From an uncultured Alphaproteobacteria bacterium (lineage in GTDB: Bacteria > Pseudomonadota > Alphaproteobacteria > RF32 > CAG-239), in assembly GCA_944391705.1 (NCBI GenBank), contig CALXUN010000017.1, forward strand, positions 1 through 35,690: a stretch of DNA of 35,690 nucleotides. Reading direction: 5' to 3'. The translations under genes and the position numbers were made by a program. Under the pieces are notes generated by a model, which did not search any database, was not told where the DNA came from, and saw nothing but the letters and a program-made list of their open reading frames with translations. Below are positions 15,581 through 35,602 of this stretch, in pieces (the first letter of the stretch is position 1; every line of letters begins with the position of its first letter).

Positions 15581-15655
15581 TATTATAAAGGGTGGTTATC
15601 TGCAAAATTATGAATATATATTTTGACTGAAACAAATTTAATCCAGGAGAAAACA

Positions 15656-18600: not shown

Positions 18601-19171
18601 TTCGACAATAATGACGGAGACAAACTGGTTTTTTGATGTTGTCGGCACATATTTCTGGCATCATCAGCGGGTTAAGTCATATACGCCGGCCGGGTTCGAT
18701 GTACACGGAAAGTACGATACCAACGGCTGGCAGGGTTCGCTTTATGCCGGTTATCGATGGGAATTCGGCGGCAGCTGGTTTTTAGAACCCGCAGCAGGAA
18801 TAAATTATATTCATGTAGACGGCGTGGATTACCGCACCAATTTCAACACCAAGGTAAGTGCGGCGGATACGGATTATATCACCGGAAACATCGGCCTGTC
18901 CGGCGGTCGCGAATTAATACTTGAAAATCAGACGGTTTTGGATTTATACGGCCGCATCGGTCTGGTGCATGACTGGGACGGCAAAAGCACGATAGATGTG
19001 GCAAATTACCGGTTTAAAGAAGATATTTCTTCAACCCGTTATGAATTTGGGTTAGGGCTAAATGCCTTGTTTAATAACATAGGTTCGGCTTATGTCGAGG
19101 CATCAACACAATTAGGCGATGAGGTCAAAATCCCCTGGACACTCAACCTCGGCTGGCAGTTTGAATTTTAG
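15656..19171 (+). CDS. AIDA-type autotransporter adhesin
   Basis: A type Va secreted surface protein of 1171 residues. The start at 15656 follows AGGAGAAAACA; an upstream TTG at 15623 is rejected. The signal peptide is MRRKIVLFLSLLPQSALA. Residues about 20-740 are a run of roughly 19-residue AIDA repeats of the form GGTQNVLDGGTASQTTINSG, predicted to build a right-handed beta-helix stalk. Residues about 745-900 are the pertactin-like passenger end. The membrane barrel starts near DNHLWFKGIGERV (about 905) and finishes with aromatic FEF. The passenger contains only repeats, with no protease or separate tip domain. Adhesion or autoaggregation is the known role of relatives. A weak AAAGCTT/AAGCTTT hairpin follows the stop. 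Near-identical internal DNA repeats make length change by recombination likely. Confidence 0.95.
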   Translation: MRRKIVLFLSLLPQSALAITTTVPAGTTVSGGDVNSVVTQQVYGTADNFTVSGTQQIMSGGISHNSNLYPYGQQEVMSGGVSYDTRVQSSAVQRIRGTAYNTTIDTRGTANVYSGGLAQDTVLNGGSFYVLSGGSATGTIVNSGHGYISGVDENAVVNGGIQEIRSGGKTLGTTVSGGRLQVDSGATAENTTVSGEGSMRVAGSASGTTVKDDASLTLTGYGWVEDTVLLDGTMDVNDDTLSESTTISGGIQYVYGTDSKSTLNGGTQYVGSSGTAENTEINGGEQRVYGTVENAKITGGIQNIRTGGQSQNSEVSGSGIMNVAGTAKGTTITGGTQNVLDGGTASQTTIINSGTQNIENGGVSKNTTINNGMQNIGQGGRASDTELNSGTQTVSSGGVADETSIAAGAVQNVSGRATRTTITGGTQNVLSDGTASRTIINSGTQNVESGGSVLQTTVNDGLMNVLSGAAAEETVINGGSMVIASGGTAQNTSIVSGTQQVSGSATNTTVATGGTMNVLSGGTSASAFVNGGSMNVQSGASAENTTISGGNMTVAVNASSLKTILNGGTQAVYGTDSGSTINGGVQNIESGASVTDAILNGGIQNISGTAEDITISGGTQNISANASASATMLNSGTQNVESGGSVLQTTIKGGLQNISGTATDTVISGGTQTILNGGTSTSTTINGGIQNVYGTVSETTINGGTQNIENGGVSENVVLSGGVVNLYTGGKLHGNTKIQGGTMNIIGSNQISEINMDGGQVNLSSDSGYSALDIGALNGSGVFNLQTALSEDISDYLNIQSGEGDFGLIIHDYSEEGNLPNSFKVIDENSGATDNFYLVGKSVDVGAFKYNLEQQGNDWVLVRTPELTESSIIAKNTYSSIASLFYTHLNPVYNRIRNSHKFSEHDNHLWFKGIGERVKLHYKDESRSRLDIFGGEIGYDYNIWQSGGNVLKLGVYTGYSESEQKYDREGKGDAETKSLGIYSTIMTETNWFFDVVGTYFWHHQRVKSYTPAGFDVHGKYDTNGWQGSLYAGYRWEFGGSWFLEPAAGINYIHVDGVDYRTNFNTKVSAADTDYITGNIGLSGGRELILENQTVLDLYGRIGLVHDWDGKSTIDVANYRFKEDISSTRYEFGLGLNALFNNIGSAYVEASTQLGDEVKIPWTLNLGWQFEF
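16979..17026 (+). repeat. 48-bp internal direct repeat of the autotransporter, copy 1
   Basis: It starts TCCGGCACACAAAATGTGGA and ends TTACAGACAACA. It is identical by eye to 17558-17605, 579 bases (193 codons, in frame) away. A second identical pair, about 31 bases beginning GTACCACCATAACCGG, lies at 16641-16671 and 16911-16941. Confidence 0.85.
17558..17605 (+). repeat. 48-bp internal direct repeat of the autotransporter, copy 2
   Basis: Exact match to 16979-17026. Recombination between the two would remove 193 residues without changing the frame. Confidence 0.85.
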
Positions 19172-19187
19172 AAAGAAAAGCTTGGGT

Positions 19188-19267
19188 CTATAAAGAAAGC
19201 TTTCGTCCTTCTTTTTTGCCGTATTTTTCATAATTGCGACAATAGCTAAATCTGTTTTATTATCCAT
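19188..19267 (-). pseudogene. Scar of a deleted glycosyltransferase gene fused to a repeat fragment
   Basis: Directly after the 1252-residue gene a new start (19267), with AGGA upstream, encodes MDNKTDLAIVAIMKN. This is very like the opening of GT92-type or related transferases (usually AIVAIxKNE). From there the sequence matches, in another frame, the end of the neighbouring gene's repeat: YEKYGKKEGRKLSL and stop (19232-19188). The two pieces share TATGAAAAAT at 19232-19223. This looks like a microhomology deletion that removed the body of one or more genes at the end of the operon. The remaining frame runs on into antisense autotransporter sequence to 19112 and is not credible as a protein. 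Confidence 0.5.
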
Positions 19268-19271
19268 TTTT

Positions 19272-22200
19272 TCATTCCTGATAAATTTTAATTAATCCAT
19301 TAATTTGTTTATTTAACTCCTCCACAGTTTTCCAAACATTCATATCTTCACGAACTTTGGATAATTGATTACTCCATCTACGGCGGAAAATTTTTTGATT
19401 CTGTTCTAAAATTTCTTTCCTTTTTTCTGATGTAAAGGAAGCGTGACTTTTGTGATAAACAATCAGATTATCAATTAAAACTGTGCGGTAACCATGCAGC
19501 AAAGCACGCATATCCAAATCATCTTCTTCACAGTAGCCCATGCCGAAAATTTCATCCAATTTGCCGATTTTATCTGTTACTTCTTTACGGAGCGCGTAAC
19601 AAAAACCTTCCGGCGTTATCATCGGATATTTACATTCAGAAGTTTTTTGTACAATTTTATCTATTTGCGGCAATTTATATCGTTCATTTTCAGGAATTTT
19701 AAAAAAGCCGGAATGAATGCTTAAAGGTGAGGCCAGAGCAATGTTTTTATCTGATTTAAAACATTGTAAAACTCTTTTATCAAAGCCAAGCGGAACTTTT
19801 GTATCACTGTTTAACAAAACCACAATATCGCCTTTGGCTAAATCAATACCTTTGTTGCAGTTTTTGATAAAACCGAGATTTTGATTGTTACGGTATAACT
19901 TAAAGTTAGAATGTTTATTAGTGAATTTTTGTAAATAATTATAAGTTTCTTTGTTAGAACAATCATCCATCAATATAACTTTTGTTTGTTTCAATAAATT
20001 GGCTTCCAACAAACTGGCCAGACAATTTTTCACATCTGGTAACGCATTGTATATAGGCACAACAATCGTCAATTTTAAGTTTCTGTCATCAGGGATAACA
20101 GGCTTTGCTAAAATACTTTTAATATTAATTTTATTTGGTTTGTAACATTCTTCAGGCTTGCAATATATTTTACGATCTATATCATATGCCAGTTTGGGAA
20201 GTTTAATAAGTTTACCAAGTTTTAAGTCTTCCATTTCAGGACTAAATTCTCCTATTCCGCTCATTGAAGTAAAGGTCATCTCACCAAAATAAATATGGTT
20301 ATTAACATCATAGAAATCTACTCTGACCAATGCGAAACTTTTAGAGAGCGTTTCTGATAATTGTAACATTTTTTCTAAATTTTTTGGTTTTTCAATTTCT
20401 TTTTCTAATCTAGGCCATTTAACAATAACATCTAATTCATTCCAATTTTTATCATAAATTTTTCGTTGGTGATAAGGCGTTCCACTATATAAATCTAACC
20501 ATATTTGAATCACTTTTCCATTACTGCAGAAAAATCTATAATCATACAAAGCGTCTCCTATTTCTTGAATATATTCTTCAATAACAATTTTAGGTTGCAT
20601 ATCCCGATAATGAAGTTCAAAACCAGTTTTGAAAGCGAAATTTTCTTTCATCCAGGTATCAACTTTTTGCTTGGCGTCAGCTAAATCAAGTTTCGATTTA
20701 TCAGGAACAATAATATTATACCCAGAACCATGATTACACTTCATGACAAACCGGTCAGGCAGTTTATCAAAATCAATCTCATCAAAGCTGTCATAAACGC
20801 CCAATAAGGGAATAAGATATTGCTCACCGATTTTTTCTTTTACCCAGTCGCGCACCAGATATTTATCCGCCAAACGGGTTTTAAGCGGCGTCGAATCATA
20901 AAGTTTAAGCCACTGGATTTTTTCATTAAATGTTTGTGGATTATCCAAATTCAATGTTTTTCCGGTTCTTTCTTTAAACCAAAGAGCAAGTTCTCTTTTG
21001 TATTCTGAAATCGGCAAGCATTCATAAAATGAATAATCTTTAATATTTGAAAAAGAATTTCTTCCTTCATATTTGCCGTGTTTTTCATAATGAACAAGCG
21101 GATTGATTTTTGCTTCTTTGACATCTTTATAACGGTTTAAATACCAATTTGTATTAAACTTTGGTCCTGGGTTGCGTCCTTCTTTCCACCCGGATTTTAA
21201 ATAATGCTCAACCGGGTCAATACCGGATTTTTTAACATCCGGATAAGTTTTTAAATACCAGTGTTTGTCAAAGTATTCCGAACAGGCAATCAGCTTATAA
21301 TCATCTGTTTTATTCGCTTGTAGTACGGAATGTATCATAAGATTTAAAGCGGCAGAATATGCTTCAATGGAGTTGTTTTTTAAGTAAGCTTCACGGCATG
21401 ATTTTTCGATTTGTTCGGGATGATTTTCCAAATTATTTACCATTTTTTCTATGCGCAGAGCTAACTCTTGAGCATTTTCCGATGGAAACGTATAACCATT
21501 TTCACCTTCTTTTAACACATATCTAGCTCCAACGTGATCGGAAATAATTGCCGGCTTTCCCATCATCATGGCTTCCAAAGCTACACGAGATGTTGGCTCT
21601 TCACGAGACGGTACGACAACACAAGATATGTTCTCATAATATCTTATCATGGAATCAAAATCAGAAATGGGGTCAAGGAATTTAATATTAGTTTCGTCAT
21701 ATGAGGTTTTAATTAAATTTGAAAAAAAACTTTTATCATACGGCAAACCCAAAACATGAAATTCACATTTATCTTTTATCTTATGATTAACTAATTTAAT
21801 GCCGTCAATGAAAACATCTTGTCCTTTGCGTTTTCCAATAGTGCCGATAACAGTAAAAATAAATTTATCGTTTCCTATATGCACATGATGATAGTAATCT
21901 TTTATTCCATGTTTGATTACTTTAACTTTAGAATTATACGGAAGATATTCGTCACGTGAAAATTCTGACATAGTGTAAATATTGTCGGCGTTCATAAAAG
22001 AAATCCGCATAGAATTATTATCTTCAAGCAATCTCACTGGTTCTCTTATCCACCATACGGTCGGGATGAGATTTTTTAAGATATTATATTCATTATATAA
22101 TGTTATGGTATTAATAATAGCAAAATCGCAAAAGGAAGCGATTAAACAACTTTTATTTAAATTGTTTGAAATGAAAACTTTACCGATTTTTCTAAACTCT

Positions 22201-23030
22201 GCTGCTAACGGACCGTCTTTTATAGAAACGATAATAATTTGATAACCAAGTTCTTTTAAGCATTCTGCTGCTTTTAATAAAGAAAGCGGTGCGCCGGTAT
22301 AAGTAAGTTCATGGGAGAATAAAACAATCTTTTTAATTTTTTTATTCTTAAAAGTACGAATAAATTGCGCCAGCTTATAAAAAGCAGGTGAACATTTTTG
22401 ATTTTGAAATTTTCGTCCTTCTCTTTTTCCATACTTTTCATAATGCAAAAGCGGATTTATTTTAGCTCGTTTAACATCGGCATTTAAATCCAGATAATCA
22501 TTGGTACTAAACTTTTTGCTTGGGTTACGGCCTTCTTTCCAACCGAATTGTAAATAATGTTTAACAGGGTCAACACCGGCTTTCTTAACATCCGGATACA
22601 TTTTTAAATACCAGTGCTTATCAAAATACTTTGATTTGGCAATCAGTTTATAATCTGTACTTTCCGTTGTCTTTTTTGTTTTAGTCTTCTTTTCTTTAAT
22701 CTTGGTATTTGCTTTCTGCATCAGCTCTTTATGAGCCAGCATATAATGAAACAGCGGACACCATTTCTTTTCCAAAAGTTCCGGATACTGCTCCAGATAA
22801 GCTTCCGTGTCAAACTCCTTGCTCGGATTGCGGCCTTCTTTCCAGCCCCATTTAACGTAATGCCTGGCCGCACCGATTTTCTTGGCTTTAACATCCGGAT
22901 TTTGCTCCAAATACCATTTCGCATCAAACAGCGGCGAAGCCTTGACGATTTCAATTTGTCGTTTCTCATCATATTTTACTTTGCTTATTAAATGAAATAT
23001 CCTGCAAATCTTTAAAGTCCATAAGTTCAT
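19272..23030 (-). CDS. Giant three-domain polysaccharide enzyme: GT4, TupA-like ATP-grasp, GT2
   Basis: A 1252-residue cytoplasmic protein. Three modules of the type F(D/x)xxWYLxxYPDVKxxGxDPxxHYLxxGWKEGRNP...YLxxxxDVKxAxINPLxHYEKxGKxEGR lie at about 31-100, 126-206 and 578-657. A GT4 domain spans about 232-570, with TGAPLSLLKA, GTIGKRKGQDVFIDG and the acidic EEPTSRVALEAMMMGKP. A TupA-like ATP-grasp domain covers about 690-960, with FNEKIQWLKLYD, FVMKCNHGSGYNI and DYRFFCSNGKV. A GT2 domain covers about 985-1200, with TIVVPIYNALPDV, LLNSDTKVP and EEDDLDMR. It starts one base after the RgpF-like stop, behind AGAGGT. Base composition is visibly more AT-rich than the rfb genes, suggesting separate acquisition. 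It probably makes and decorates a surface glycan; the substrates are unknown. Confidence 0.92.
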   Translation of the reverse strand: MNLWTLKICRIFHLISKVKYDEKRQIEIVKASPLFDAKWYLEQNPDVKAKKIGAARHYVKWGWKEGRNPSKEFDTEAYLEQYPELLEKKWCPLFHYMLAHKELMQKANTKIKEKKTKTKKTTESTDYKLIAKSKYFDKHWYLKMYPDVKKAGVDPVKHYLQFGWKEGRNPSKKFSTNDYLDLNADVKRAKINPLLHYEKYGKREGRKFQNQKCSPAFYKLAQFIRTFKNKKIKKIVLFSHELTYTGAPLSLLKAAECLKELGYQIIIVSIKDGPLAAEFRKIGKVFISNNLNKSCLIASFCDFAIINTITLYNEYNILKNLIPTVWWIREPVRLLEDNNSMRISFMNADNIYTMSEFSRDEYLPYNSKVKVIKHGIKDYYHHVHIGNDKFIFTVIGTIGKRKGQDVFIDGIKLVNHKIKDKCEFHVLGLPYDKSFFSNLIKTSYDETNIKFLDPISDFDSMIRYYENISCVVVPSREEPTSRVALEAMMMGKPAIISDHVGARYVLKEGENGYTFPSENAQELALRIEKMVNNLENHPEQIEKSCREAYLKNNSIEAYSAALNLMIHSVLQANKTDDYKLIACSEYFDKHWYLKTYPDVKKSGIDPVEHYLKSGWKEGRNPGPKFNTNWYLNRYKDVKEAKINPLVHYEKHGKYEGRNSFSNIKDYSFYECLPISEYKRELALWFKERTGKTLNLDNPQTFNEKIQWLKLYDSTPLKTRLADKYLVRDWVKEKIGEQYLIPLLGVYDSFDEIDFDKLPDRFVMKCNHGSGYNIIVPDKSKLDLADAKQKVDTWMKENFAFKTGFELHYRDMQPKIVIEEYIQEIGDALYDYRFFCSNGKVIQIWLDLYSGTPYHQRKIYDKNWNELDVIVKWPRLEKEIEKPKNLEKMLQLSETLSKSFALVRVDFYDVNNHIYFGEMTFTSMSGIGEFSPEMEDLKLGKLIKLPKLAYDIDRKIYCKPEECYKPNKINIKSILAKPVIPDDRNLKLTIVVPIYNALPDVKNCLASLLEANLLKQTKVILMDDCSNKETYNYLQKFTNKHSNFKLYRNNQNLGFIKNCNKGIDLAKGDIVVLLNSDTKVPLGFDKRVLQCFKSDKNIALASPLSIHSGFFKIPENERYKLPQIDKIVQKTSECKYPMITPEGFCYALRKEVTDKIGKLDEIFGMGYCEEDDLDMRALLHGYRTVLIDNLIVYHKSHASFTSEKRKEILEQNQKIFRRRWSNQLSKVREDMNVWKTVEELNKQINGLIKIYQE
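21052..21305 (-). repeat. WYLxxYPDV module repeat, third copy
   Basis: DNA encoding residues about 576-660 of the giant enzyme is closely similar to 22412-22655. Shared stretches include TTTTTAAATACCAGTG and CTTCTTTCCA near the same positions. The repeat separates the GT4 from the ATP-grasp domain. Confidence 0.7.
22412..22655 (-). repeat. WYLxxYPDV module repeat, second copy
   Basis: DNA encoding residues about 126-206, closely similar to 21052-21305. The first copy (22730-22945) is more diverged. A fragment of a further copy survives at 19188-19232. Confidence 0.7.
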
Positions 23031-23031
23031 T

Positions 23032-23877
23032 TTATACCTCTGTTTTTTTCGAATAAACCGGGATTTTGCAGATTTTAATCAGCTTATTCCCGCTTGTTGT
23101 TATTTTTTTCTGGTAAAAAAAGCGTATGATGGCGCTCCTTAACAATAATATTCCGTAGCGCCATTGCCTGACGCCGTATGTTTCAAACCCTGATGCCTTA
23201 ACGACCGCTCCGAACAAACGCTCAAAAATATGCGCTTTTGTTCCTTCTTTGATTTTGCCGTCCGTCGGCTCAAAATCTTTTATGCCGTAACGCAAAAACG
23301 GCTTGAAAATTTCCGCCCGCGCCAAAAACATGGTGCCGGCCGCAAAAGAAAAATCCCGTACCGCCGGCAAATTCATTTCCAGCAAAAAGTTTTCAATTTC
23401 ATCAAGCCATTTATCATAAAGCTTGTGTTCGTTCGTGATGCAATAGGCCGCGGAAATCATGCCGGTTTGGGGATTTTGCGCCATCGTTTGCAGATTTTTG
23501 GCCACCTGTTGCGGGCTTTCAAGCAAGGCATCATACAATACTTTTGCCCACAAAGCGTTGTCAAACCGCCGTCCGTTAAGGTGCGTATAATTTCCTTTTG
23601 TGGTGTTCTTGGTGTGCAGCTTTAAAATATAATCGTAGTCATCAAGCTTGATCCGGTGTAAAAATTCCATAAACGGTGCCACGTCATAACCGCGGTTTTC
23701 AACTTTAATGATTTGCACATCGGGTTTAAAAGCTTTCAACCCGCTTTCCGCCGCGGCATCTTCACCGCACATCGTTACAATCAAATTATAATCAACGCCC
23801 GCCAAATTCTTCAGATATGCCAGAATTTGCGGCAGCTGCTCAAGATAGTATAAATGTAAATGCACCGCGAGCCGCAT
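23032..23877 (-). CDS. RgpF-like rhamnan synthesis protein
   Basis: A 281-residue protein of the RgpF family (PF05045-type), linked to rhamnose-containing polysaccharide assembly in streptococci and in many Gram-negative O-antigen clusters. Visible hallmarks are RLAVHLHLYYLEQLPQIL at the start, VENRGYDVAPFMEFL, YILKLHTKNT, AGTMFLARAEIFKPF and HIFERLFG near the end. The start at 23877 is preferred over an upstream in-frame start because GGAGG lies just before it and it begins two bases after the GT2 stop. It presumably transfers or processes rhamnose made by the rfb genes of the same operon. Confidence 0.88.
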   Translation of the reverse strand: MRLAVHLHLYYLEQLPQILAYLKNLAGVDYNLIVTMCGEDAAAESGLKAFKPDVQIIKVENRGYDVAPFMEFLHRIKLDDYDYILKLHTKNTTKGNYTHLNGRRFDNALWAKVLYDALLESPQQVAKNLQTMAQNPQTGMISAAYCITNEHKLYDKWLDEIENFLLEMNLPAVRDFSFAAGTMFLARAEIFKPFLRYGIKDFEPTDGKIKEGTKAHIFERLFGAVVKASGFETYGVRQWRYGILLLRSAIIRFFYQKKITTSGNKLIKICKIPVYSKKTEV

Positions 23878-23879
23878 TT

Positions 23880-24893
23880 TCAAGCCCTCCATTTCAACGC
23901 CAGATTGCACACATTGAGCCATAAATTGGCGTGTACGGGCAACGCGGTATTTTCTATAATTTTTTTGGAATTTATCCGTCCGTAAACGGCGGCGTTCAAG
24001 CAGCGTTTGATAAGATATTGCGCGCAAACTTGCGAAAATTCGGGTTCTGCCGCAAAATGCCGCGTTTGATTTTCTTGTTCCAGCTTTTCTAAAACATGTT
24101 TCAGCAAATCAAGCGTTGCCGCATCTTTAATCCGACAGCGACCGGTTGTCACAAAATTATCAAAAGCACTTTGTTCGTCGGCAGTCAACACAATGCCGTT
24201 TTTAGCAAACCATGCTTTATGAAATTCTTTCTGCTCATCGGAAATAACCTCTTTTAGGCGCTTGCTGACCATATCTTTATGAAAACGATATTTGTAAAGC
24301 ACGTCGCTGATGTTGGCAAGCCTGGTGATTTGGCCGAAATCGTCATAAAGTTGACGATCGTTTAGGCTGACAAAATTTTCATTGTAACGAATATTGTTGT
24401 CAACCGCCAAGGCGCGTCGAAACATAATCGTCGGATGATGAACGGGTGCCTTAAACAGCAAAGACGCCATGATTTCTTCATGTCGTGCGGGGTTTTGCAC
24501 CACTTTGAAACGGTTGATTTCGCCAAACTTTTTATAAGCCGTGCCAACAAGCCCGATTTCAGGATGAGCTTCCAGATATTCATACTGCCGCTGCAGGCGT
24601 TCGGGCAGGGAGATATCGTCATGATTCATCATTGCCGCATATTCCGCCGTTGCCAAATCCAGCAAACGGTTATAGCTTTTAGCCACGCCCAAACTTTCCG
24701 GATTTTCATAATATTTTATCCGTTCGTCATGATAGGTGCGGATAAACGCCTGTAGTGCCTTGTTACCGGGGCTGTCGTTTAAGATAATAAACTCAAAGTC
24801 CGTAAATGTCTGCCGCAACACGCTGTCCACCGCCGCGCGCAGGTGGGCGATGTGTGTGTTCCATATAGGCATCAAAACGGAAATCTTCGGCAT
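23880..24893 (-). CDS. Glycosyltransferase family 2
   Basis: A 337-residue GT-A enzyme. The N-terminus KISVLMPIWNTHIAHLRAAV is the nucleotide-binding strand-loop. AVDSVLRQTFTDFEFIILND follows, then the DxD-type acidic motif in MMNHDDISLPERLQRQ and the acceptor-side segment KAPVHHPTIMFRR. The C-terminal about 110 residues are less conserved. The start has AAGGAGAG just upstream, nine bases beyond the rfbB stop. As part of the rhamnose operon it probably adds one sugar of the repeat unit; donor and acceptor cannot be told from sequence alone. Confidence 0.92.
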   Translation of the reverse strand: MPKISVLMPIWNTHIAHLRAAVDSVLRQTFTDFEFIILNDSPGNKALQAFIRTYHDERIKYYENPESLGVAKSYNRLLDLATAEYAAMMNHDDISLPERLQRQYEYLEAHPEIGLVGTAYKKFGEINRFKVVQNPARHEEIMASLLFKAPVHHPTIMFRRALAVDNNIRYNENFVSLNDRQLYDDFGQITRLANISDVLYKYRFHKDMVSKRLKEVISDEQKEFHKAWFAKNGIVLTADEQSAFDNFVTTGRCRIKDAATLDLLKHVLEKLEQENQTRHFAAEPEFSQVCAQYLIKRCLNAAVYGRINSKKIIENTALPVHANLWLNVCNLALKWRA

Positions 24894-24902
24894 TTTCTCT
24901 CC

Positions 24903-25913
24903 TTATTTGTTTTCCAAATACCAGTTAACGGTTTTAACAATGCCGGAGGCAAAAGTTTCTTCCGCTTTCCATTTCAGTTCGGTTGAAAGTTTGGTTGCAT
25001 CGATGGCGTACCGCTTGTCATGACCGGCGCGGTCTTTGACAAAGGTGATTAAATCGGCATATTTTCCGCTCTTGCGCGGCCGTTTCTCGTCCAAAATGGC
25101 GCAAATCGTGTTGACGATTTCCAGATTGTTTTTTTCGTTATGTCCGCCGACATTATAAGTTTCACCGGCTTTGCCGTTATGAAAAATCAAATCTATCGCC
25201 TTGCAATGGTCTAAAACAAAAAGCCAGTCGCGCACGTTTTTGCCGTCGCCGTAAATCGGGATGGGCTTTTCGTTAAGACAATTATCAATAATCTTCGGAA
25301 TAAGTTTTTCCGGATGCTGTTTCGGACCGTAATTGTTTGAACAGTTGGAAGTTGTCACATTAAGCCCGAAAGTGTGGAAATACGCCCGCACCAAAAAATC
25401 CGAGCTTGCTTTGCTGGCCGAATACGGCGAGTTCGGCGCATAAGGCGTTGTTTCCGTGAAATATCCGTCAGCCCCGAGCGAACCGTAAACCTCATCGGTC
25501 GAGATATGGTGAAAACGGGCATTTTCATAACCTTCACGCGTTTGGCCTGGCGCCGTCATCCAGTTTTTCCGCGCCGCCTCCAACAAATTAAATGTGCCGA
25601 CGATGTTTGTTTCGATAAAAGCCCTCGGCCCCGAAATCGAGTTGTCCACATGGCTTTCGGCGGCAAAATGTATGACGCCGCGAACATCATATTTTTGAAA
25701 CAAATCTTCCACAAACCGGGCATCGCAAATATCGCCTTGGACAAAGCTATAATTTTCAAGCGTTGCACATTCTTTAAGGTTGTCCAAGTTTCCGGCGTAA
25801 GTCAGTTTGTCAAGATTAATAATCCGATATTGCGGATATTTCTTGGCAAAATAAGGCACAAAGTTTGAACCGATAAAACCGGCGCCGCCGGTAATTAAAA
25901 TTGTTGCAGGCAT
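24903..25913 (-). CDS. rfbB: dTDP-glucose 4,6-dehydratase
   Basis: RfbB converts dTDP-glucose to dTDP-4-keto-6-deoxyglucose, the second step to dTDP-L-rhamnose. The 336-residue SDR enzyme has the NAD motif TGGAGFIGSN, HFAAESHVDNSI, the STDEVYG segment and the catalytic YSASK (YxxxK). The family signatures SNNYGPKQHPEKLIP and YGDGKNVRDWLFV are present. The start at 25913 (MPATILITGG) has GGAGGG upstream and overlaps the end of rfbD by 19 bases; a start 33 bases earlier is less likely. Complete and confident. Confidence 0.97.
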   Translation of the reverse strand: MPATILITGGAGFIGSNFVPYFAKKYPQYRIINLDKLTYAGNLDNLKECATLENYSFVQGDICDARFVEDLFQKYDVRGVIHFAAESHVDNSISGPRAFIETNIVGTFNLLEAARKNWMTAPGQTREGYENARFHHISTDEVYGSLGADGYFTETTPYAPNSPYSASKASSDFLVRAYFHTFGLNVTTSNCSNNYGPKQHPEKLIPKIIDNCLNEKPIPIYGDGKNVRDWLFVLDHCKAIDLIFHNGKAGETYNVGGHNEKNNLEIVNTICAILDEKRPRKSGKYADLITFVKDRAGHDKRYAIDATKLSTELKWKAEETFASGIVKTVNWYLENK

Positions 25914-26716
25914 TTTTTCAAGCCCTCCTTCCAATGGGGAATGCAAAGATGAAATGTTTCTTTGATTTTGCTCTTATCCAAAACACTGTAAAACGGACGT
26001 TTGGCTTTGGTCGGGTAGGCTTCGGTCGGTATCGGCAGGACTTTGCACTTTAAACCGGACAAGGCCATGATTTCCACGGCAAAGTCATACCATGATGAGA
26101 CGCCTTCGTTGGTAAAATGGTAGATACCGCGTTTTTCAGAGCTCAGTTGCGGCAAAATATTGACAATGGCCTGCGCCAGATCAAAAGCATAAGTCGGTGT
26201 GCCGATTTGGTCGGAAACGACATTAAGGCTTTCTTTTTCAGCGCCTAAACGCCGCATGGTTTTTACGAAGTTATTGCCGAATTCGGAATAAAGCCAGGCG
26301 GTGCGGATAATAACGGCCGTTTCAGCACGTTCTAAAACTTTCTTTTCGCCTTCAAGCTTGGTTTTCCCGTAAACGGAAACAGGAGAGGCATCATCTTCCG
26401 GTTTGTAAGGCCGGTGACCGCAACCGTCAAAGACATAATCGGTTGAAACATGAATGATTTTTGCCCCGCTGGCCGCCAGGTTTGCCGGCCCGTCGACATT
26501 AATCCGCCGGGCAAGTTCCGGTTCATCTTCAGCCTTATCAACTGCCGTATAAGCCGCACAGTTGATAATCGTGCTTATTTTACGGCTTGAAACATAATCC
26601 TTAACGGCATCGGCATCAGTGATGTCAAGTTCATGAACATCGGCAAAAACCGCCTCCGGCAAAAGTTTCTTCAATTCCGAACCGAGTTGTCCGTTGCTAC
26701 CCGTTATCAGGAACAT
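25895..26716 (-). CDS. rfbD: dTDP-4-dehydrorhamnose reductase
   Basis: RfbD performs the last step, NAD(P)H reduction to dTDP-L-rhamnose. The 273-residue SDR protein begins MFLITGSNGQLGSELKKLLP and has NCAAYTAVDKAEDEP, STDYVFDG, the catalytic YGKTKLEGE and RTAWLYSEFGNNFVKTM, all family signatures. It overlaps rfbC by 20 bases upstream and rfbB by 19 bases downstream, so the rfb genes are translationally linked. Confidence 0.97.
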   Translation of the reverse strand: MFLITGSNGQLGSELKKLLPEAVFADVHELDITDADAVKDYVSSRKISTIINCAAYTAVDKAEDEPELARRINVDGPANLAASGAKIIHVSTDYVFDGCGHRPYKPEDDASPVSVYGKTKLEGEKKVLERAETAVIIRTAWLYSEFGNNFVKTMRRLGAEKESLNVVSDQIGTPTYAFDLAQAIVNILPQLSSEKRGIYHFTNEGVSSWYDFAVEIMALSGLKCKVLPIPTEAYPTKAKRPFYSVLDKSKIKETFHLCIPHWKEGLKKCLQQF

Positions 26717-27245
26717 CTTTTAATCCTTTCGCAATTCTGTCTTTTTCGGAAGTGATGACCTTGTCAGCCGGAATTTTCCAGTCTATGCCGATTTCCGGGT
26801 CGTCGTAACGAATGCCGAACTCGGCTTCTTTGCAATAAAAATTATCCACCTTATAAGCAAAAACCGCCGTTTCGCTCAAAACCGCAAAGCCGTGCAGAAA
26901 ATGCCGCGGAATAAACAACTGGCGCTGATTTTCAGCCGAAAGCTCAACAGCGACATGCTTGCCGAAAGTCGGCGAGCCGCGGCGGATATCCACCGCCACA
27001 TCCAAGACTTTTCCTTCCAGAACGCGCACCAGTTTGGCTTGCGAATGTTCGCCGAGCTGACAATGCAAACCGCGGATAACCCCGAAACACGATTTTGACT
27101 GATTATCTTGCACAAAGCGGCAGTCAATGCCGTTTTTAACAAACTCCGCCTCATTATAGCTTTCAAAAAAGTAGCCGCGGGCGTCCGTGAAAACACGCGG
27201 TTCGACAATAACGACCCCGTCAATTTCCGTTTTTATGAAATTCAT
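26697..27245 (-). CDS. rfbC: dTDP-4-dehydrorhamnose 3,5-epimerase
   Basis: RfbC epimerises C3 and C5 of the 4-keto sugar. The product has 182 residues with cupin-fold signatures: EPRVFTDARGYFFESYNEAEF, FVQDNQSKSCFGVIRGLHCQ, KLVRVLEGKVLDVAVDIR and FIPRHFLHGFAVLSE. The start at 27245 (MNFIKTEIDG) follows GAGGAGTATC; the longer frame start 60 bases upstream is rejected. It overlaps the 3' end of rfbA by 26 bases. Confidence 0.97.
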   Translation of the reverse strand: MNFIKTEIDGVVIVEPRVFTDARGYFFESYNEAEFVKNGIDCRFVQDNQSKSCFGVIRGLHCQLGEHSQAKLVRVLEGKVLDVAVDIRRGSPTFGKHVAVELSAENQRQLFIPRHFLHGFAVLSETAVFAYKVDNFYCKEAEFGIRYDDPEIGIDWKIPADKVITSEKDRIAKGLKDVPDNG

Positions 27246-28119
27246 GATACTCCTCATAAACTTTTTGAAGATAAGTTTTGTAATTTCCGTCTTTAAGTCC
27301 GTCAATCAGACTTTTCATTCCCGCGTCGTCGATAAAACCGCGCCGGTAGGCAATCTCTTCAATACAGGCGATTTTTAAGCCCTGACGCTTTTCAATCAGC
27401 TGCACATAAGTTCCGGCATCCATCAAGCTGTCGGGCGTGCCGGCGTCAAGCCAGGCATTACCGCGGTGCATCGGTACAACGTTTAAGCGTCCTTCACTTA
27501 AATAGACATTGTTTAAGTCCGTAATTTCCAGTTCGCCGCGTGCCGAAGGCTTCAAAGCGCGGGCTTTTTCCGCCACATCGCCGGGATAAAAATAAAGCCC
27601 GACCGAAGCATAGTTTGATTTCGGCTGTTTGGGTTTTTCTTCAATCGAAAGCACCCGGAAATCTTTATCAAACGCCACCACGCCGAAACGCTCGGGATCT
27701 GAAACGTGATAAGCAAAAATCGTGGCGTTTTTACCTTTGTTTTCCTCAATTTCTTTACGGAAATGATGAATTTGGTTACCCATATAAAAAATATTATCGC
27801 CCAATATCAGGCAAACATCATCGCCGGCGATAAAATCAGCACCTATGGTAAAAGCCTGTGCAATACCTTTGGGTTCGTTTTGGATGGCATAATGAATATT
27901 AAGCCCGATAAAATGCCCGTCGCCGAAAAGAGTTTGAATGTTGGGAATATCTTTAGGCGTCGAAATAATCAAAATATCTTTAATGCCAAATAACATTAAG
28001 GTTGACAAAGGATAATAAATCATCGGCTTGTCGTATACCGGCAGCAGTTGTTTTGAGGTTGTTTTTGTTAAAGGGTAGAGGCGTGTTCCGCTGCCTCCGG
28101 CTAAGATTATTCCTTTCAT
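27220..28119 (-). CDS. rfbA: Glucose-1-phosphate thymidylyltransferase
   Basis: RfbA makes dTDP-glucose from dTTP and glucose-1-phosphate, the first step of dTDP-rhamnose synthesis. The 299-residue product opens with KGIILAGGSGTRLYPLTKTT, the nucleotidyltransferase signature, then KQLLPVYDKPMIYYPLS, ILGDNIFYMG and LDAGTPDSLMDAG. The start at 28119 is chosen over an ATG six bases earlier because GGAG is then correctly spaced. It begins only two bases after the stop of the recombinase-like gene, so both must share a transcript. Confidence 0.97.
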   Translation of the reverse strand: MKGIILAGGSGTRLYPLTKTTSKQLLPVYDKPMIYYPLSTLMLFGIKDILIISTPKDIPNIQTLFGDGHFIGLNIHYAIQNEPKGIAQAFTIGADFIAGDDVCLILGDNIFYMGNQIHHFRKEIEENKGKNATIFAYHVSDPERFGVVAFDKDFRVLSIEEKPKQPKSNYASVGLYFYPGDVAEKARALKPSARGELEITDLNNVYLSEGRLNVVPMHRGNAWLDAGTPDSLMDAGTYVQLIEKRQGLKIACIEEIAYRRGFIDDAGMKSLIDGLKDGNYKTYLQKVYEEYHEFHKNGN

Positions 28120-28121
28120 TT

Positions 28122-28688
28122 TCATGCTCCGTTTGTATTTGTTAAAGAGCGCTCTTCAATAAAATGATAAAGCGTCACGCGGCTCACCCCTAATTCCCGC
28201 GCAATCTGGCTTTTATTCATGCCGTCCGTTAACATTTGACGGATTTGTTTTTCCTTGCCGTCCAACAATTTTTTAAGTTTTATTCCTTTAATCCGCCCGA
28301 GTTTGAAGCCTTTGTCTTTTTTTCTTTGCAGGGCAGCGGTTGTTGATTTGGAGGCAAGAGATTTTCGTATATTCATAACCAAATCCATGGTTTTTAACAA
28401 ATAATCCCCGAATTCATTTGCCAAAAATTCATAACGTTCAGCCAGAGAAATAACTCGGATCTGGCGTTTAAAGAAAAAATCAAGATTATCGCGAACTTCG
28501 CGCAAACAAGTACCCAGACAGGAAATATCACTGACAATCAGGATATCCTCAGGGTTTAAGGCAGTTTTTTTAATAGAGCTTAATGGTACACGGGTATAAA
28601 CACAGTCAGTCTGCAGCTTTAAGGATTCGTATATTTGCTGCTGGTAAACGTCTGAATCTGCTGGTGATAGTGTATACCCGATGATCAT
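28122..28688 (-). CDS. Catalytically dead Mpi-like serine recombinase homologue, probable operon regulator
   Basis: A 188-residue relative of Mpi-type DNA invertases. The resolvase-like N-terminal domain (about 1-135) keeps the fold signatures VISLAERYEFL and AALQRKKDKGFKLGRIKG. A C-terminal helix-turn-helix follows (about 155-180, MNKSQIARELGVSRVTLYHFI). The active site is gone. The usual YxRVS with nucleophilic Ser is YTLSP here. The usual (D/S)RLGR with two catalytic arginines is SCLGT at 56-60. DNA binding should persist while strand exchange should not. It is the first gene of the rhamnose polysaccharide operon, and two 23-bp repeats lie between its promoter and start. An autoregulator or operon regulator is the natural inference. 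AAGGA lies an unusual 12 bases before the ATG. Confidence 0.85.
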   Translation of the reverse strand: MIIGYTLSPADSDVYQQQIYESLKLQTDCVYTRVPLSSIKKTALNPEDILIVSDISCLGTCLREVRDNLDFFFKRQIRVISLAERYEFLANEFGDYLLKTMDLVMNIRKSLASKSTTAALQRKKDKGFKLGRIKGIKLKKLLDGKEKQIRQMLTDGMNKSQIARELGVSRVTLYHFIEERSLTNTNGA

Positions 28689-28711
28689 TTTAAATCATGT
28701 TCCTTTTTATT

Positions 28712-28765
28712 GGTCGTTTACGGCAAACCGTTAATTTTATCCGGTCGTTTAGTATAAACTGTTAA
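28712..28765 (-). promoter_or_regulatory. Two 23-bp operator-like direct repeats in the leader of the polysaccharide operon
   Basis: On the minus strand each copy is TTAAC(A/G)GTTT, four variable bases, then TAAACGACC (28765-28743 and 28734-28712). The repeats are 31 bases apart, about three helical turns, and begin about six bases after the -10. The TAAACGACC half recurs in the palindrome at 28912-28952. They are likely binding sites for the helix-turn-helix protein encoded just downstream, or for another repressor. Confidence 0.6.
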
Positions 28766-28770
28766 ATGGT

Positions 28771-28799
28771 AACATACCTAATAAAAGAAGTTTTTGCAA
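28771..28799 (-). promoter_or_regulatory. Promoter of the rhamnose polysaccharide operon
   Basis: On the minus strand TTGCAA (28799-28794), 17 bases, then TATGTT (28776-28771). It is a plausible sigma-70 promoter positioned just upstream of the paired operator-like repeats. No other strong candidate lies in the 281-base gap, which is otherwise AT-rich and non-coding. Confidence 0.5.
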
Positions 28800-28911
28800 G
28801 CAATATTTACAAGCCGTGTATTAAAATAAAAAACGATATAAATCAATATATTATTTCTATATTTTTAACAAACCGAGTTCCTGATTTCAGTGAATGCAAA
28901 AGTGTATATTT

Positions 28912-28952
28912 AAACGACCGTTTATGCTTAACACAAGCATAAACGGTCGTTT
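28912..28952. repeat. Perfect 18-bp-arm palindrome between the MATE gene and the polysaccharide operon
   Basis: The arms AAACGACCGTTTATGCTT and its exact complement flank the loop AACAC. It lies 18 bases past the MATE stop. Neither side has a clean T run directly after the stem on the MATE transcript, where TTTAAATATACAC follows, so it is a poor intrinsic terminator. Both arms contain AAACGACC, the core of the operator-like repeats 150-200 bases away. Confidence 0.7.
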
Positions 28953-28969
28953 GTAAAATAAAGTTTTTT

Positions 28970-30385
28970 TTATTCGGCAGGTGATTGATTAACCGTATTA
29001 ATGGCAGCTTTTACCCTGATGGCAGGGCCATAGTTCTTAAAATAATTTTTCAATTTTTTAGCTTTCAGGCCGCGGATGGTAAAAACATACCCGATCATGA
29101 CGACCATTGCCGCACCGAACCAACCGATCGGGCTGGCATAAAAAATCCCCGTGTAACCGATAATATGAGCCAGGTAAATGGCTGAAAATGAACGAGCGCC
29201 GAGTTCCACCAGGCTGGCAATCAGCGGAATAAGCGACCGGCCCATACCTTGCAGCGTGTTACGGAAAATAAAAATCATGCCTAAGAAGAAGTAAAACAGG
29301 GTGCTGATGCTTAAATATTTTTTACCCGTAGTAACAATAAACTGATTTTCATCTTTTAGGAAAATAGAAATCATTTCCTCGCCGACATACCTGACCAGCA
29401 AAGACATCAAAATGCTGATAACAAGTGAGGTCAGTCCGGCAATCATCACGCCTTTCCGAATACGGGCAATTTTCCCGGCTCCCCAGTTCTGAGCCGAAAA
29501 TGTTGCCATGGCAATGCCCAAAGCAAGCAGAGGCTGGGTTGCAACTTGCTCAATTCTTAAAGCTGCGGTAAAAGCGGCAATGATATCCGGACCAAAAGAG
29601 TTGCAAACGCTTTGCAAAACCATCATGCTTAAAGACAATACGGAAAATTGAATGGCCATCGGCACGGCAATATGCAGGTGTATTTTCATAAATTGGCGGT
29701 CATAAACCCAGTCCTGCCGGCTTAAATGCATAATCGGAAATTTTTTGTAAATATAAAACATACACAAAATAACGGCAATGCAGACTGAAGCAACCGTACC
29801 GATAGCCGAGCCGATAACCCCGAAACCGCAATAGTAAATCAGGATAAAGTTAAATAATATATTCAAAAGCGTTGAAAATATCAGAAAATAAAGCGGTGTA
29901 CGGCTGTCGCCCAAAGCACGGATAAAACCGGCAAGCAGGTTGTAAAAAACAATCATAACCAAACCACCGGTCAAAACAGCCATAAAATTATAGGCATCTT
30001 TCATAATTTCTGCCGGAACGTTCATTAATTGTAACAGCGGATGCAAAAATACAATCAGAAAAATCGTAATTAAAATACATAAAACAGCACTGGCCATCAG
30101 ACAGTGGGTAATGGATTTTCGCATACCGTTAAAATCCCCGGCGCCGAAACGCTGGGCGGTAATAACCGTCAATCCGCCGGTAAACCCGAAAGCAACAAGT
30201 AAAAAAACAAAGAAAATCGGTGCCGTTGCCCCGACGGCGGCCAAAGCATGAACCCCCAACAGGCGTCCGACAATCAGGATGTCTGAAATATTATAAAGCT
30301 GTTGAAACAGATTTCCGATTAAAACCGGAATTCCGAAAGCCAAAATTAATTTTGCCGGCGAACCGGTGGTCATATTTTGAATCAT
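28970..30385 (-). CDS. MATE family efflux transporter
   Basis: An inner-membrane Na+ or H+ coupled antiporter for drugs or other small molecules. The 471-residue product has about 12 hydrophobic segments and the two MATE halves. The first half starts with ILAFGIPVLIGNLFQQLYNISDILIVGRLLG and GATAPIFF. The second half starts near IAVPMAIQFSVLSLSMMVLQ. The start at 30385 follows GAGGTGT; a GTG six bases earlier is possible. A TTTACA-17-TATGTT promoter precedes it. The substrate is unknown. A flippase role for the neighbouring polysaccharide (which lacks a visible Wzx) is conceivable, but the sequence looks like an ordinary MATE. Confidence 0.93.
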   Translation of the reverse strand: MIQNMTTGSPAKLILAFGIPVLIGNLFQQLYNISDILIVGRLLGVHALAAVGATAPIFFVFLLVAFGFTGGLTVITAQRFGAGDFNGMRKSITHCLMASAVLCILITIFLIVFLHPLLQLMNVPAEIMKDAYNFMAVLTGGLVMIVFYNLLAGFIRALGDSRTPLYFLIFSTLLNILFNFILIYYCGFGVIGSAIGTVASVCIAVILCMFYIYKKFPIMHLSRQDWVYDRQFMKIHLHIAVPMAIQFSVLSLSMMVLQSVCNSFGPDIIAAFTAALRIEQVATQPLLALGIAMATFSAQNWGAGKIARIRKGVMIAGLTSLVISILMSLLVRYVGEEMISIFLKDENQFIVTTGKKYLSISTLFYFFLGMIFIFRNTLQGMGRSLIPLIASLVELGARSFSAIYLAHIIGYTGIFYASPIGWFGAAMVVMIGYVFTIRGLKAKKLKNYFKNYGPAIRVKAAINTVNQSPAE

Positions 30386-31688: not shown

Positions 31689-32315
31689 TTATTTAACCTT
31701 CCAGACGATTTTAAATTCGGCACTGTTTGTGCCGATATGTTTGGTACAGATTTCATAAATTTGGTCAAGCGTCACATTTTTTAAGCATGCTTGTCCGGTG
31801 CTGCAGCGTGAATCGCCGTATAATATACTGAGTTGCTCTTCATCGGTTTGGGAACTGCTTAAAGTTGATACGGAATAAATATTGGCGCTGTTTTCTTTGG
31901 CGGTAACAATCAAGTTGCGGCAAATTTCCAGATTTTGTGTGGAATTTTTGGTTAAAGAAGAGCTATTAAAGACAAGATTCATTGTCTCGCCATTATCATT
32001 ATACAAATAAAAAACATACCATTTGTTGCCGAAGATATCATAAATGTAGTTCGTATTGTTTTCCCTAATCATCTCAACAGGAATCTCACCAAGCTTGATG
32101 AAATAGGATGTTAAGTTCTGATTACGAAAATCTGTTGAAAAACCATGCACATAACGCGCCACGGCGTTAATCACCGTATTCATCTGTTCGGCGTGTTTGT
32201 TGAGCTTATATTTAAACATCGCCTTGGAATAACCGGCGATTGCGCCGACACTTAAAACACCGATAATCGCTAAAACCCCGAGCATTTCCACCATACTTCT
32301 ACCACATTCACGCAT
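31689..32315 (-). CDS. Type IV prepilin-like protein 1
   Basis: A 208-residue protein with a class III signal: MRECG, cleavage, then RSMVEMLGVLAIIGVLSVGA. Gly at -1 and Glu at +5 fit prepilin peptidase recognition, with Arg at +1 instead of Phe. The hydrophobic helix continues into GYSKAMFKYKLNKHAEQ. The globular part contains FIKLGEIPVEMIRENNTNYIYDIFGN, shared with the paralogue at 34867-35550, and several cysteines near the end. No pilus assembly gene lies nearby. The start has GGAGAGAATATT upstream. It is driven by an A-tract promoter. It is probably a minor pilin or pseudopilin of a pilus or secretion system encoded elsewhere. Confidence 0.88.
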   Translation of the reverse strand: MRECGRSMVEMLGVLAIIGVLSVGAIAGYSKAMFKYKLNKHAEQMNTVINAVARYVHGFSTDFRNQNLTSYFIKLGEIPVEMIRENNTNYIYDIFGNKWYVFYLYNDNGETMNLVFNSSSLTKNSTQNLEICRNLIVTAKENSANIYSVSTLSSSQTDEEQLSILYGDSRCSTGQACLKNVTLDQIYEICTKHIGTNSAEFKIVWKVK

Positions 32316-34866: not shown

Positions 34867-35550
34867 TTATCTGAAAGAAGCAGAAATGACAATTTGCGGA
34901 TAATCCTCTGCAAAGCCGCGGCACATATCGTCAATTTTTGTAAAAGTCAGGTCGCTGATACAATTGAATTCATCACAAGTGTCATAGCCGCTGTATATGG
35001 TATGTTTTGAAGGAGATAGCCCTCCGCCGGCATCAGCATCATGAGTCCCCATCCGGTAAAGTATCGCTGCATTTTCTTTGATGGCAATGATAACATTTCG
35101 GCACATGGCTATGTCGTTTGGATTTTCTTTATTATTGTATGTAATGCTGACTGACATAACATCGGGTTCGACATTTGCAGTTTTACCCCGTTTGGTAATA
35201 CTGATTTGGTTGTTAAAAATATCATAAATATAATTGGAATTACTGCCCTTAATCATCTCAACCGGGACAAGCCCGAGTTTGATGAAAGTTGGCGTAACAT
35301 AATTAGATTGGGAATTGTTAAAGGTGAATTGTTTGGCATATATCGCTGCCTCGTTAAATAAAGTTGATAACTGTTCGGCCTGTTTGTTTAATTTATATTT
35401 CATCATGGCTTTGGAATAACCGGAAATAGCACCGATGGATAAAACACCGATGATGGCAAGTACACCTAACATTTCGACCATGGAACGTCCGGATAAGGCG
35501 GCATTTGCTTGTAATTTTTTTGTGTGCTTGTTTTTGCTGATTTTTTCCAT
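34867..35550 (-). CDS. Type IV prepilin-like protein 2
   Basis: A 227-residue paralogue of the prepilin at 31689-32315. The leader is long and basic (MEKISKNKHTKKLQANAALSG), then comes cleavage before RSMVEMLGVLAIIGVLSIGA, with Gly at -1 and Glu at +5. GYSKAMMKYKLNKQAEQ and FIKLGLVPVEMIKGSNSNYIYDIFNN match the paralogue closely. The rest is diverged and ends with four cysteines. The ATG at 35550 has GGAGAAGTTT upstream; the TTG 12 bases earlier is rejected. The promoter is of the A-tract type. A minor pilin or pseudopilin is the likeliest role. Confidence 0.88.
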   Translation of the reverse strand: MEKISKNKHTKKLQANAALSGRSMVEMLGVLAIIGVLSIGAISGYSKAMMKYKLNKQAEQLSTLFNEAAIYAKQFTFNNSQSNYVTPTFIKLGLVPVEMIKGSNSNYIYDIFNNQISITKRGKTANVEPDVMSVSITYNNKENPNDIAMCRNVIIAIKENAAILYRMGTHDADAGGGLSPSKHTIYSGYDTCDEFNCISDLTFTKIDDMCRGFAEDYPQIVISASFR

Positions 35551-35602
35551 AAACTTCTCCAAAGTTACAACATAAATAAGAATACAATACGATTTGCGCG
35601 CT

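Follow-up and report, generated by a model that had tools for sequence, protein, structure and literature searches.

An apparently non-catalytic Mpi-type recombinase at the head of a polysaccharide operon

The 35,690-nucleotide stretch analysed here (contig CALXUN010000017.1 of an uncultured alphaproteobacterium; hereafter the window) carries, at 28122-28688 on the minus strand, a paralog of the Mpi-type serine recombinases that lacks the catalytic residues of the family and stands first in a polysaccharide gene cluster. We lean towards the view that the cluster is a phase-variable surface-polysaccharide cassette and that its first gene, expressed in the ON state only, would encode a non-catalytic DNA-binding regulator. 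This reading builds on what is seen in the sequences: the catalytic loss, the conservation of such "dead" paralogs, their position at the head of operons, inverted repeats around their promoters, and past inversion in relatives.

The window protein has 188 residues and was matched by the NCBIfam model of Mpi, NF009949, with an E-value of 1e-25 and 90.6 bits, below the curated cut-off of 272 bits; the Pfam Resolvase model covered residues 44-127 only (26.6 bits). A preliminary description of this DNA had called the helix-turn-helix (HTH) intact, and the Pfam HTH_7 match at residues 147-174 (28167-28250, minus strand; 31.6 bits) bears this out. The predicted structure (predicted local distance difference test 86.6) showed the small serine recombinase fold, to which the HTH is C-terminal, and matched Tn3 resolvase (5cy1, E-value 2.4e-9), gamma-delta resolvase (1gdt, template modelling (TM) score 0.56) and 2r0q, the whole-chain TM-scores being only 0.4-0.6. 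The catalytic set of Mpi is S10, R8, R45, R68 and R71, in gamma-delta numbering, and all five residues are present in 20 of 20 active paralogs. Alignment of the window protein with the intact paralogs of its own genus placed P at S10, L at R8, a gap at R45, C at R68 and T at R71. The replacement of SRLGR by SCLGT and of YIRVS by YTLSP, pointed out in the preliminary description, is thus real, and the segment with the R45 equivalent has been lost by deletion as well, which that description missed. As judged from alignment and predicted structure, the window protein is a small serine recombinase of the Mpi type that lacks a catalytic site. PADLOC assigned it to no family and gave two weak matches for the related dead gene L043. 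The neighbourhood of the window gene showed no transposase gene.

Conservation and operon-head position of the dead paralogs

We searched 153 genomes of the family, 154 of the order and 385 sampled from the class to which the window belongs, and then read selected loci. At least 51 dead paralogs were found, a lower bound, with low-scoring matches read only in part: 47 in 35 of the 154 genomes of the order, and four (L132 and L133 in G225, L134 in G512, L138 in G242) in three genomes of other alphaproteobacterial families. One further copy, L118, is split. Within the genus of the window, two of the three other genomes carry a copy, 68-69% identical, in the same place. A family match at E<=1e-25 was present in 115 of the 154 order genomes.

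Of the first 39 dead genes, 36 were aligned with 20 active paralogs, leaving out L052 (stop), L062 (contig edge) and L078 (internal deletion). R8 was kept in 20 active versus one dead member, R45 in 20 versus none, R68 in 20 versus one and R71 in 20 versus none; E118, kept in all 20 active paralogs, was R in 35 of the 36 dead ones, and the S10 column was still Ser in eight of them. All 36 matched NF009949 at E<=0.001. The ratio of nonsynonymous to synonymous substitution rates (dN/dS) was 0.08-0.19 in ten dead pairs, and reading frames exceeded 160 residues in 50 of the 51 members. In a tree that takes 50 of the 51 dead members, a single branch (support 98/94) splits the 50 dead rows from 27 active rows; a single origin of the dead group is favoured using all columns and is not firm once the active-site columns are removed. 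Viral contigs, scanned with two peptide patterns only, gave 151 pattern matches, among which no relative of the dead gene was confirmed, and a scan of genome contigs with two peptide patterns only gave six loci.

In the window, the dead gene stands at the head of the operon, before polysaccharide genes, and most of the family follows this pattern. A same-strand open reading frame (ORF) of at least 100 residues starts within 400 bp downstream of 46 of the 51 dead genes (none was counted for L043, L044, L079, L121 and L138), and 27 of these 46 overlap the dead gene when the first possible start is taken. A Pfam scan of each protein assigned 36 of the 46 next genes to a sugar or polysaccharide family. 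These 36 comprise GT2 (13), other glycosyltransferases (six: L041, L048, L066, L067, L068 and L125), RgpF (three), nucleotidyl transferases (seven), epimerases (three), UDP-sugar dehydrogenase (one), UDP-galactopyranose mutase (one) and DegT aminotransferases (two); the remaining ten are multi-HTH proteins (three), a phosphoenolpyruvate mutase with a cytidylyltransferase domain, an APH protein and five without a family. An intact Mpi gene lies 150-272 bp upstream of 20 of the 51 dead genes, the upstream sequence being shorter than 900 bp for six of the 51.

Inverted repeats and promoter inversion in relatives

Inverted repeats 80-200 bp apart were scored in the 330 bp upstream of the 46 dead genes with at least 250 bp of upstream sequence. 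A score of at least 13 was reached around the promoter by 18 of the 46, with related rows counted separately, but by only three out of 460 shuffled sequences and a single one out of 98 control promoters, which came from L040-L079 and the window only. Between L043 (G020) and L045 (G014), the 131-bp interior was 0.95 identical when inverted versus 0.55 when direct, and the flanks were collinear, with direct identities of 0.84 and 0.98. The interiors of L044, L046 and L047 likewise matched that of L043 when inverted (0.81-0.83; upstream flanks 0.61-0.65, downstream flanks 0.96), and both orientations are therefore found among relatives, between species. The promoter match TTGAAA-16-TATGAT points towards the gene in L043 and away from it in L045. 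Consensus matches were otherwise too noisy in this AT-rich DNA to give promoter direction, the TTGAAA-16-TATGAT type excepted. These alignments show that the promoter segment has been inverted among relatives on an evolutionary time scale, the compared loci belonging to different species.

Site copies around the window promoter

The preliminary description had placed two 23-bp repeats between a promoter and the start codon. We recovered both (28712-28734 and 28743-28765), which are identical at 18 of 23 positions, start 31 bp apart and leave a gap of 8 bp. They are included in two degenerate, recombination-site-like copies, copy A at 28709-28734 and copy B at 28740-28765, the latter with CGGTCGTTTA at 28742-28751. 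The core GGTCGTTTA was found again, inverted, upstream of the promoter as TAAACGACCG at 28911-28920, which had been overlooked. Copies C (AAACG-AC-CGTTT, 28912-28923) and D (AAACG-GT-CGTTT, 28941-28952) together span 28912-28952, in an 18-bp perfect hairpin with arms at 28912-28929 and 28935-28952, beyond the promoter. The promoter is thus surrounded by four core copies, the degenerate ones from 28709 and 28740 on the gene side and the perfect hairpin pair on the far side. By its position, the hairpin is perhaps also the terminator of the MATE gene; a terminator scan of it gave nothing at threshold.

The candidate invertible promoter segment spans 28742-28920, copy B being its gene-proximal arm; its arms (28742-28751 and 28911-28920) are 10 bp long, perfect and 159 bp apart. 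The promoter-like TTGCAA-17-TATGTT of the preliminary description is present and faces the dead gene (28794-28799 and 28771-28776, together 28771-28799, minus strand), with an 8/12 match to the consensus that alone is within noise. The block GGCTTGTAAATATTGCTTGCAAA, at and before this match, is kept in G001 and G003. These two genomes show a like arrangement of site copies, with one downstream copy only. A 40-bp stretch with two site copies lies downstream of the promoter in G000 and upstream, inverted, in the sister species G003 (31/40 identical), and the inverted match scored 35, whereas the direct one scored 18 and the best of 500 shuffles reached 26. Such a change of sides would fit what repeated inversion leaves behind. 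With inverted copies of the core on the far side of the promoter and evidence of past inversion at related loci, the better reading of the two repeats is that they are recombination-site core copies.

A genome-wide scan for the 12-mer site gave 27 matches with at most one mismatch, versus 25 for a reversed-pattern control. Outside the window, two copies are exact (C2 and C5); both fall within ORFs, of 422 and 246 residues, and the scan thus found no second switch with the exact window site.

Site type in paired loci

By eye, the right halves of the sites CCGTTT, CCATTT, TCATTT and GCGTTT go with active Mpi proteins whose recognition helix ends in H-R/K-Y/F (ten genes: L046, L047, L049, L050, L053, L055, L056, L059, L065 and L070), and where the helix is of the form Y-x-F (L041, L057, L063, L064 and L119), the sites are of the AACGAAC type; L120, L126, L132 and L133 were left unclassed. 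L063 and L065 have an identical dead helix and, by eye, different site classes, the sites of L063 having been chosen by eye at a locus with a repeat score of only 8. Site type thus seems, by eye, to track the HTH of the active partner, not that of the dead protein. The sites look like those of Mpi, and the dead protein's own target therefore probably lies away from the crossover sites.

Two observations concern the paired loci themselves. A palindrome of the type CTTATAAATAGTT..AACTATTTATAAG lies just 5' of the mpi start codon in the divergent pairs L046, L047, L055, L065 (4851-4866) and L070 (5643-5658), and a similar one occurs at L054, L061 and L069 without an adjacent mpi. At L050 (5862-8161), two operons, each headed by a dead gene, flank a single active Mpi gene; their inverted repeats are not the same in the probable crossover core.

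A model for the switch and its alternatives

In the model that we favour, the window promoter would lie between inverted recombination sites and be flipped by an active Mpi-type invertase, which is a neighbouring gene in many relatives and, for the window, probably a distant genomic copy acting in trans. Transcription of the dead gene, and of the polysaccharide genes with it, would take place only in the orientation in which the promoter points into the operon. Its product, which has lost the catalytic pocket but retains the long helix that spans the DNA, as well as the arm and the HTH, would most likely be a state-dependent, non-catalytic DNA-binding regulator with targets other than its own crossover sites, be they its own or other polysaccharide promoters, or mpi. 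For the window we infer continued inversion of the segment, the invertase responsible, DNA binding by the dead protein, its target and the sign of regulation. As a tentative extension, a class of dead serine recombinases may be commitment factors built into phase-variable operons: the non-catalytic twin made in the ON state would hold the switch by poisoning Mpi complexes or by repressing mpi and rival operons, turning a random flip into a self-locking memory.

The preliminary description had proposed that a dead invertase was converted into a polysaccharide regulator. Catalytic loss, constraint, the retained HTH and the operon-head position, a pattern found across the family, fit this. Two further parts of that proposal fared differently. 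To take the repeats for the gene's own operators is not the likeliest reading, their core matching inverted copies beyond the promoter and relatives showing promoter-flanking inverted repeats and past inversion. Plain regulation has probably not supplanted inversion either: in relatives, an inversion system with an intact Mpi is found next to the dead gene.

Several observations weigh against the favoured model. In the window, a scan at >=9/12 consensus matches found no promoter in 28650-29000, a looser scan scored both directions alike, and the 10-bp arms alone are not significant (74 of 460 shuffles reach a score of 10). The locus has one orientation across the genus members that have it (G000, G001 and G003), and the window gene has no active Mpi as a neighbour, the two others of the genome being on other contigs. 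Across the family, the repeat score is below 13 in 28 of 46 loci, related rows again counted separately; these 28 include the out-of-order members tested, L132 (10), L133 (8) and L138 (6). At L043 and L045, promoter matches do not exceed their frequency in shuffles. The interiors of L065, L070 and L071 compared with L077 give a weaker contrast (0.66-0.74 inverted versus 0.50-0.54 direct), and the flanks of L070 and L077 are not collinear on one side. In the family, dS is saturated in some of the ten pairs used for dN/dS, and the tree without active-site columns needs two changes, a single one being kept in 52% of bootstraps.

Other readings share part of this evidence. One, which we consider somewhat unlikely, is that the ON-state dead paralog brakes inversion, forming mixed dimers or tetramers with Mpi or repressing mpi and so holding the promoter ON, by which a random switch would become a committed one. 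The fold shared with Mpi, the retained long helix, the adjacency to Mpi in 20 of 51 loci, the near-palindrome 5' of the mpi start codon in the divergent pairs named above and a best promoter match directed at mpi in L046 and L047 agree with it. However, the dead HTH does not track site class (L063 versus L065), no Mpi turned up within 1.5 kb of 31 of the 51 members, of which 31 six have little upstream sequence, and the palindrome, also present at the three loci without a neighbouring mpi, is perhaps a hairpin of the mpi leader. An accessory architectural role in inversion, such as that of an enhancer- or synapsis-binding partner of Mpi, would explain the linkage to Mpi and the invertible segment and the 18-bp hairpin at the far end of the window segment; but such a subunit would be made in the ON state only, and dead members were found in at least 35 of the 154 genomes, 115 of which have a family match, which makes this role improbable.

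That the protein is a plain autoregulator binding the repeats at 28712-28765 as operators, as the preliminary description had it, is unlikely in our view. The repeats do lie between promoter and start codon, and the HTH is intact, but G001 and G003 are without the second downstream copy, the core recurs inverted beyond the promoter, the homologous stretch is inverted on the far side in G003, and site types track the active Mpi. A tandem operator pair was rejected on the absence of the second downstream copy in G001 and G003 and on the inverted stretch of G003. A decaying invertase pseudogene, kept at the operon head by polarity, would account for the lost catalytic residues, the split L118 and the L052 frame shortened by a stop, but the dN/dS values and the length of 50 of the 51 frames make it very improbable; an orphan decaying gene was rejected on the same dN/dS of 0.08-0.19.

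The cassette and its surroundings

All genes of the window operon are on the minus strand. The dead gene is followed by rmlA (glucose-1-phosphate thymidylyltransferase, 27220-28125), which overlaps its stop. The preliminary description had the dead gene ending two bases before rfbA, which holds for the second ATG of rmlA (2 nt); the first ATG overlaps the stop by 4 nt (ATGA). Then come rmlC (dTDP-4-dehydrorhamnose 3,5-epimerase, 26697-27305), an rmlD-like gene (25895-26716; RmlD substrate-binding domain, 333 bits), an rmlB-like sugar-nucleotide dehydratase gene (24903-25946; GDP_Man_Dehyd/Epimerase families, rmlB being assigned by position and by eye) and, from Pfam, genes for a GT2 protein (23880-24893), an RgpF-domain protein (23032-24027) and a 1252-residue protein with GT1, TupA-like and GT2 domains (19272-23030).

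The promoter segment, the dead gene and the rml and glycosyltransferase genes form a 9.8-kb unit (19172-28969) that is absent from G002, a genome of the same genus. In G002, the two genes that border the unit in the window, those for the autotransporter and the MATE protein, abut, the only family gene found is an intact Mpi, and rmlA gave no match at 1e-30, a search with no positive control in G002. The unit was therefore gained or lost as a whole. The identity between G000 and G001 rises from about 0.6-0.75 to about 0.97 near nucleotides 481-540 of the dead gene, within the HTH end, and stays high through rmlA; this points to an exchange of the operon with a junction at the HTH end, and the dN/dS of this pair is a mixture.

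The flanking autotransporter (15623-19171) has AIDA-type stalk repeats according to Pfam and 1182 residues, versus 1017 in its G002 counterpart. Two prepilin-like proteins (31689-32315 and 34867-35562) share the N-terminus RSMVEMLGVLAIIGVLS, and similar ones occur in G002 (L140). Elsewhere in the family, the gene after the dead recombinase at L062 (639-1637), L063 (5380-6378) and L064 (8809-9819) encodes 332-336 residues with HTH matches along the whole length, perhaps a series of HTH units that arose by expansion of an HTH of the recombinase type. The dead genes of L043, L044, L046, L047, L058, L062 and L134 are no more than about 1.1 kb away from the end of a contig, for which repeats or mixed orientations in the metagenome assembly might be the cause.

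Comparison with known systems

In Bacteroides, according to the available text of the report, Mpi inverts the promoters of polysaccharide operons (PMC4747536), and the dead members match the model of the same recombinase family (NF009949). Here, in contrast, the first gene of the operon is itself a dead recombinase copy, the bacterial class is another one, and the Mpi gene is often local. At the extracellular polysaccharide locus IVp-I of B. fragilis, the same text describes a varying number of inverted repeats between promoter and gene that goes with lower transcription (PMC4747536). The window resembles it in having two site copies between promoter and gene, G001 having one; however, IVp-I is flipped by the tyrosine recombinase Tsr19/BF2766, and the available part of that report mentions no dead recombinase at the operon head. 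Tn3 and gamma-delta resolvases and Sin share the fold of the window protein (5cy1, 1gdt and 2r0q) but are catalytically active, whereas the window protein has no catalytic residues. A recombinase that acts as a regulator has a precedent in resolvase, which represses its own gene at res sites.

UpxY, a relative of NusG, and UpxZ stand at the start of Bacteroides capsule operons, a position shared with the dead gene, but the head gene here is a serine-recombinase derivative. In the available text on these proteins, UpxY prevents early termination and UpxZ represses non-adjacent capsules (PMC7315117). The dead protein may either control polysaccharide transcription in a UpxZ-like role or restrain Mpi. 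TldR is RNA-guided, of dead-nuclease origin, and unrelated in fold to serine recombinases. Like the regulator proposed here, it controls a surface structure and has mobile-element ancestry, as far as the available text reports (PMC13418256). The preliminary description knew of no such system, and in the part of the open-licence literature available to our search we likewise found no description of dead serine recombinases heading polysaccharide operons.

If recombinases become regulators through catalytic loss, this could account for the way in which a phase switch senses, or maintains, the state it is in. The family occurs in at least 35 species-level genomes of one alphaproteobacterial order, has active copies paired with dead ones and shows natural variation in its sites; it would thus be a ready system in which to test the links between site choice, switching rate and the choice of surface polysaccharide.
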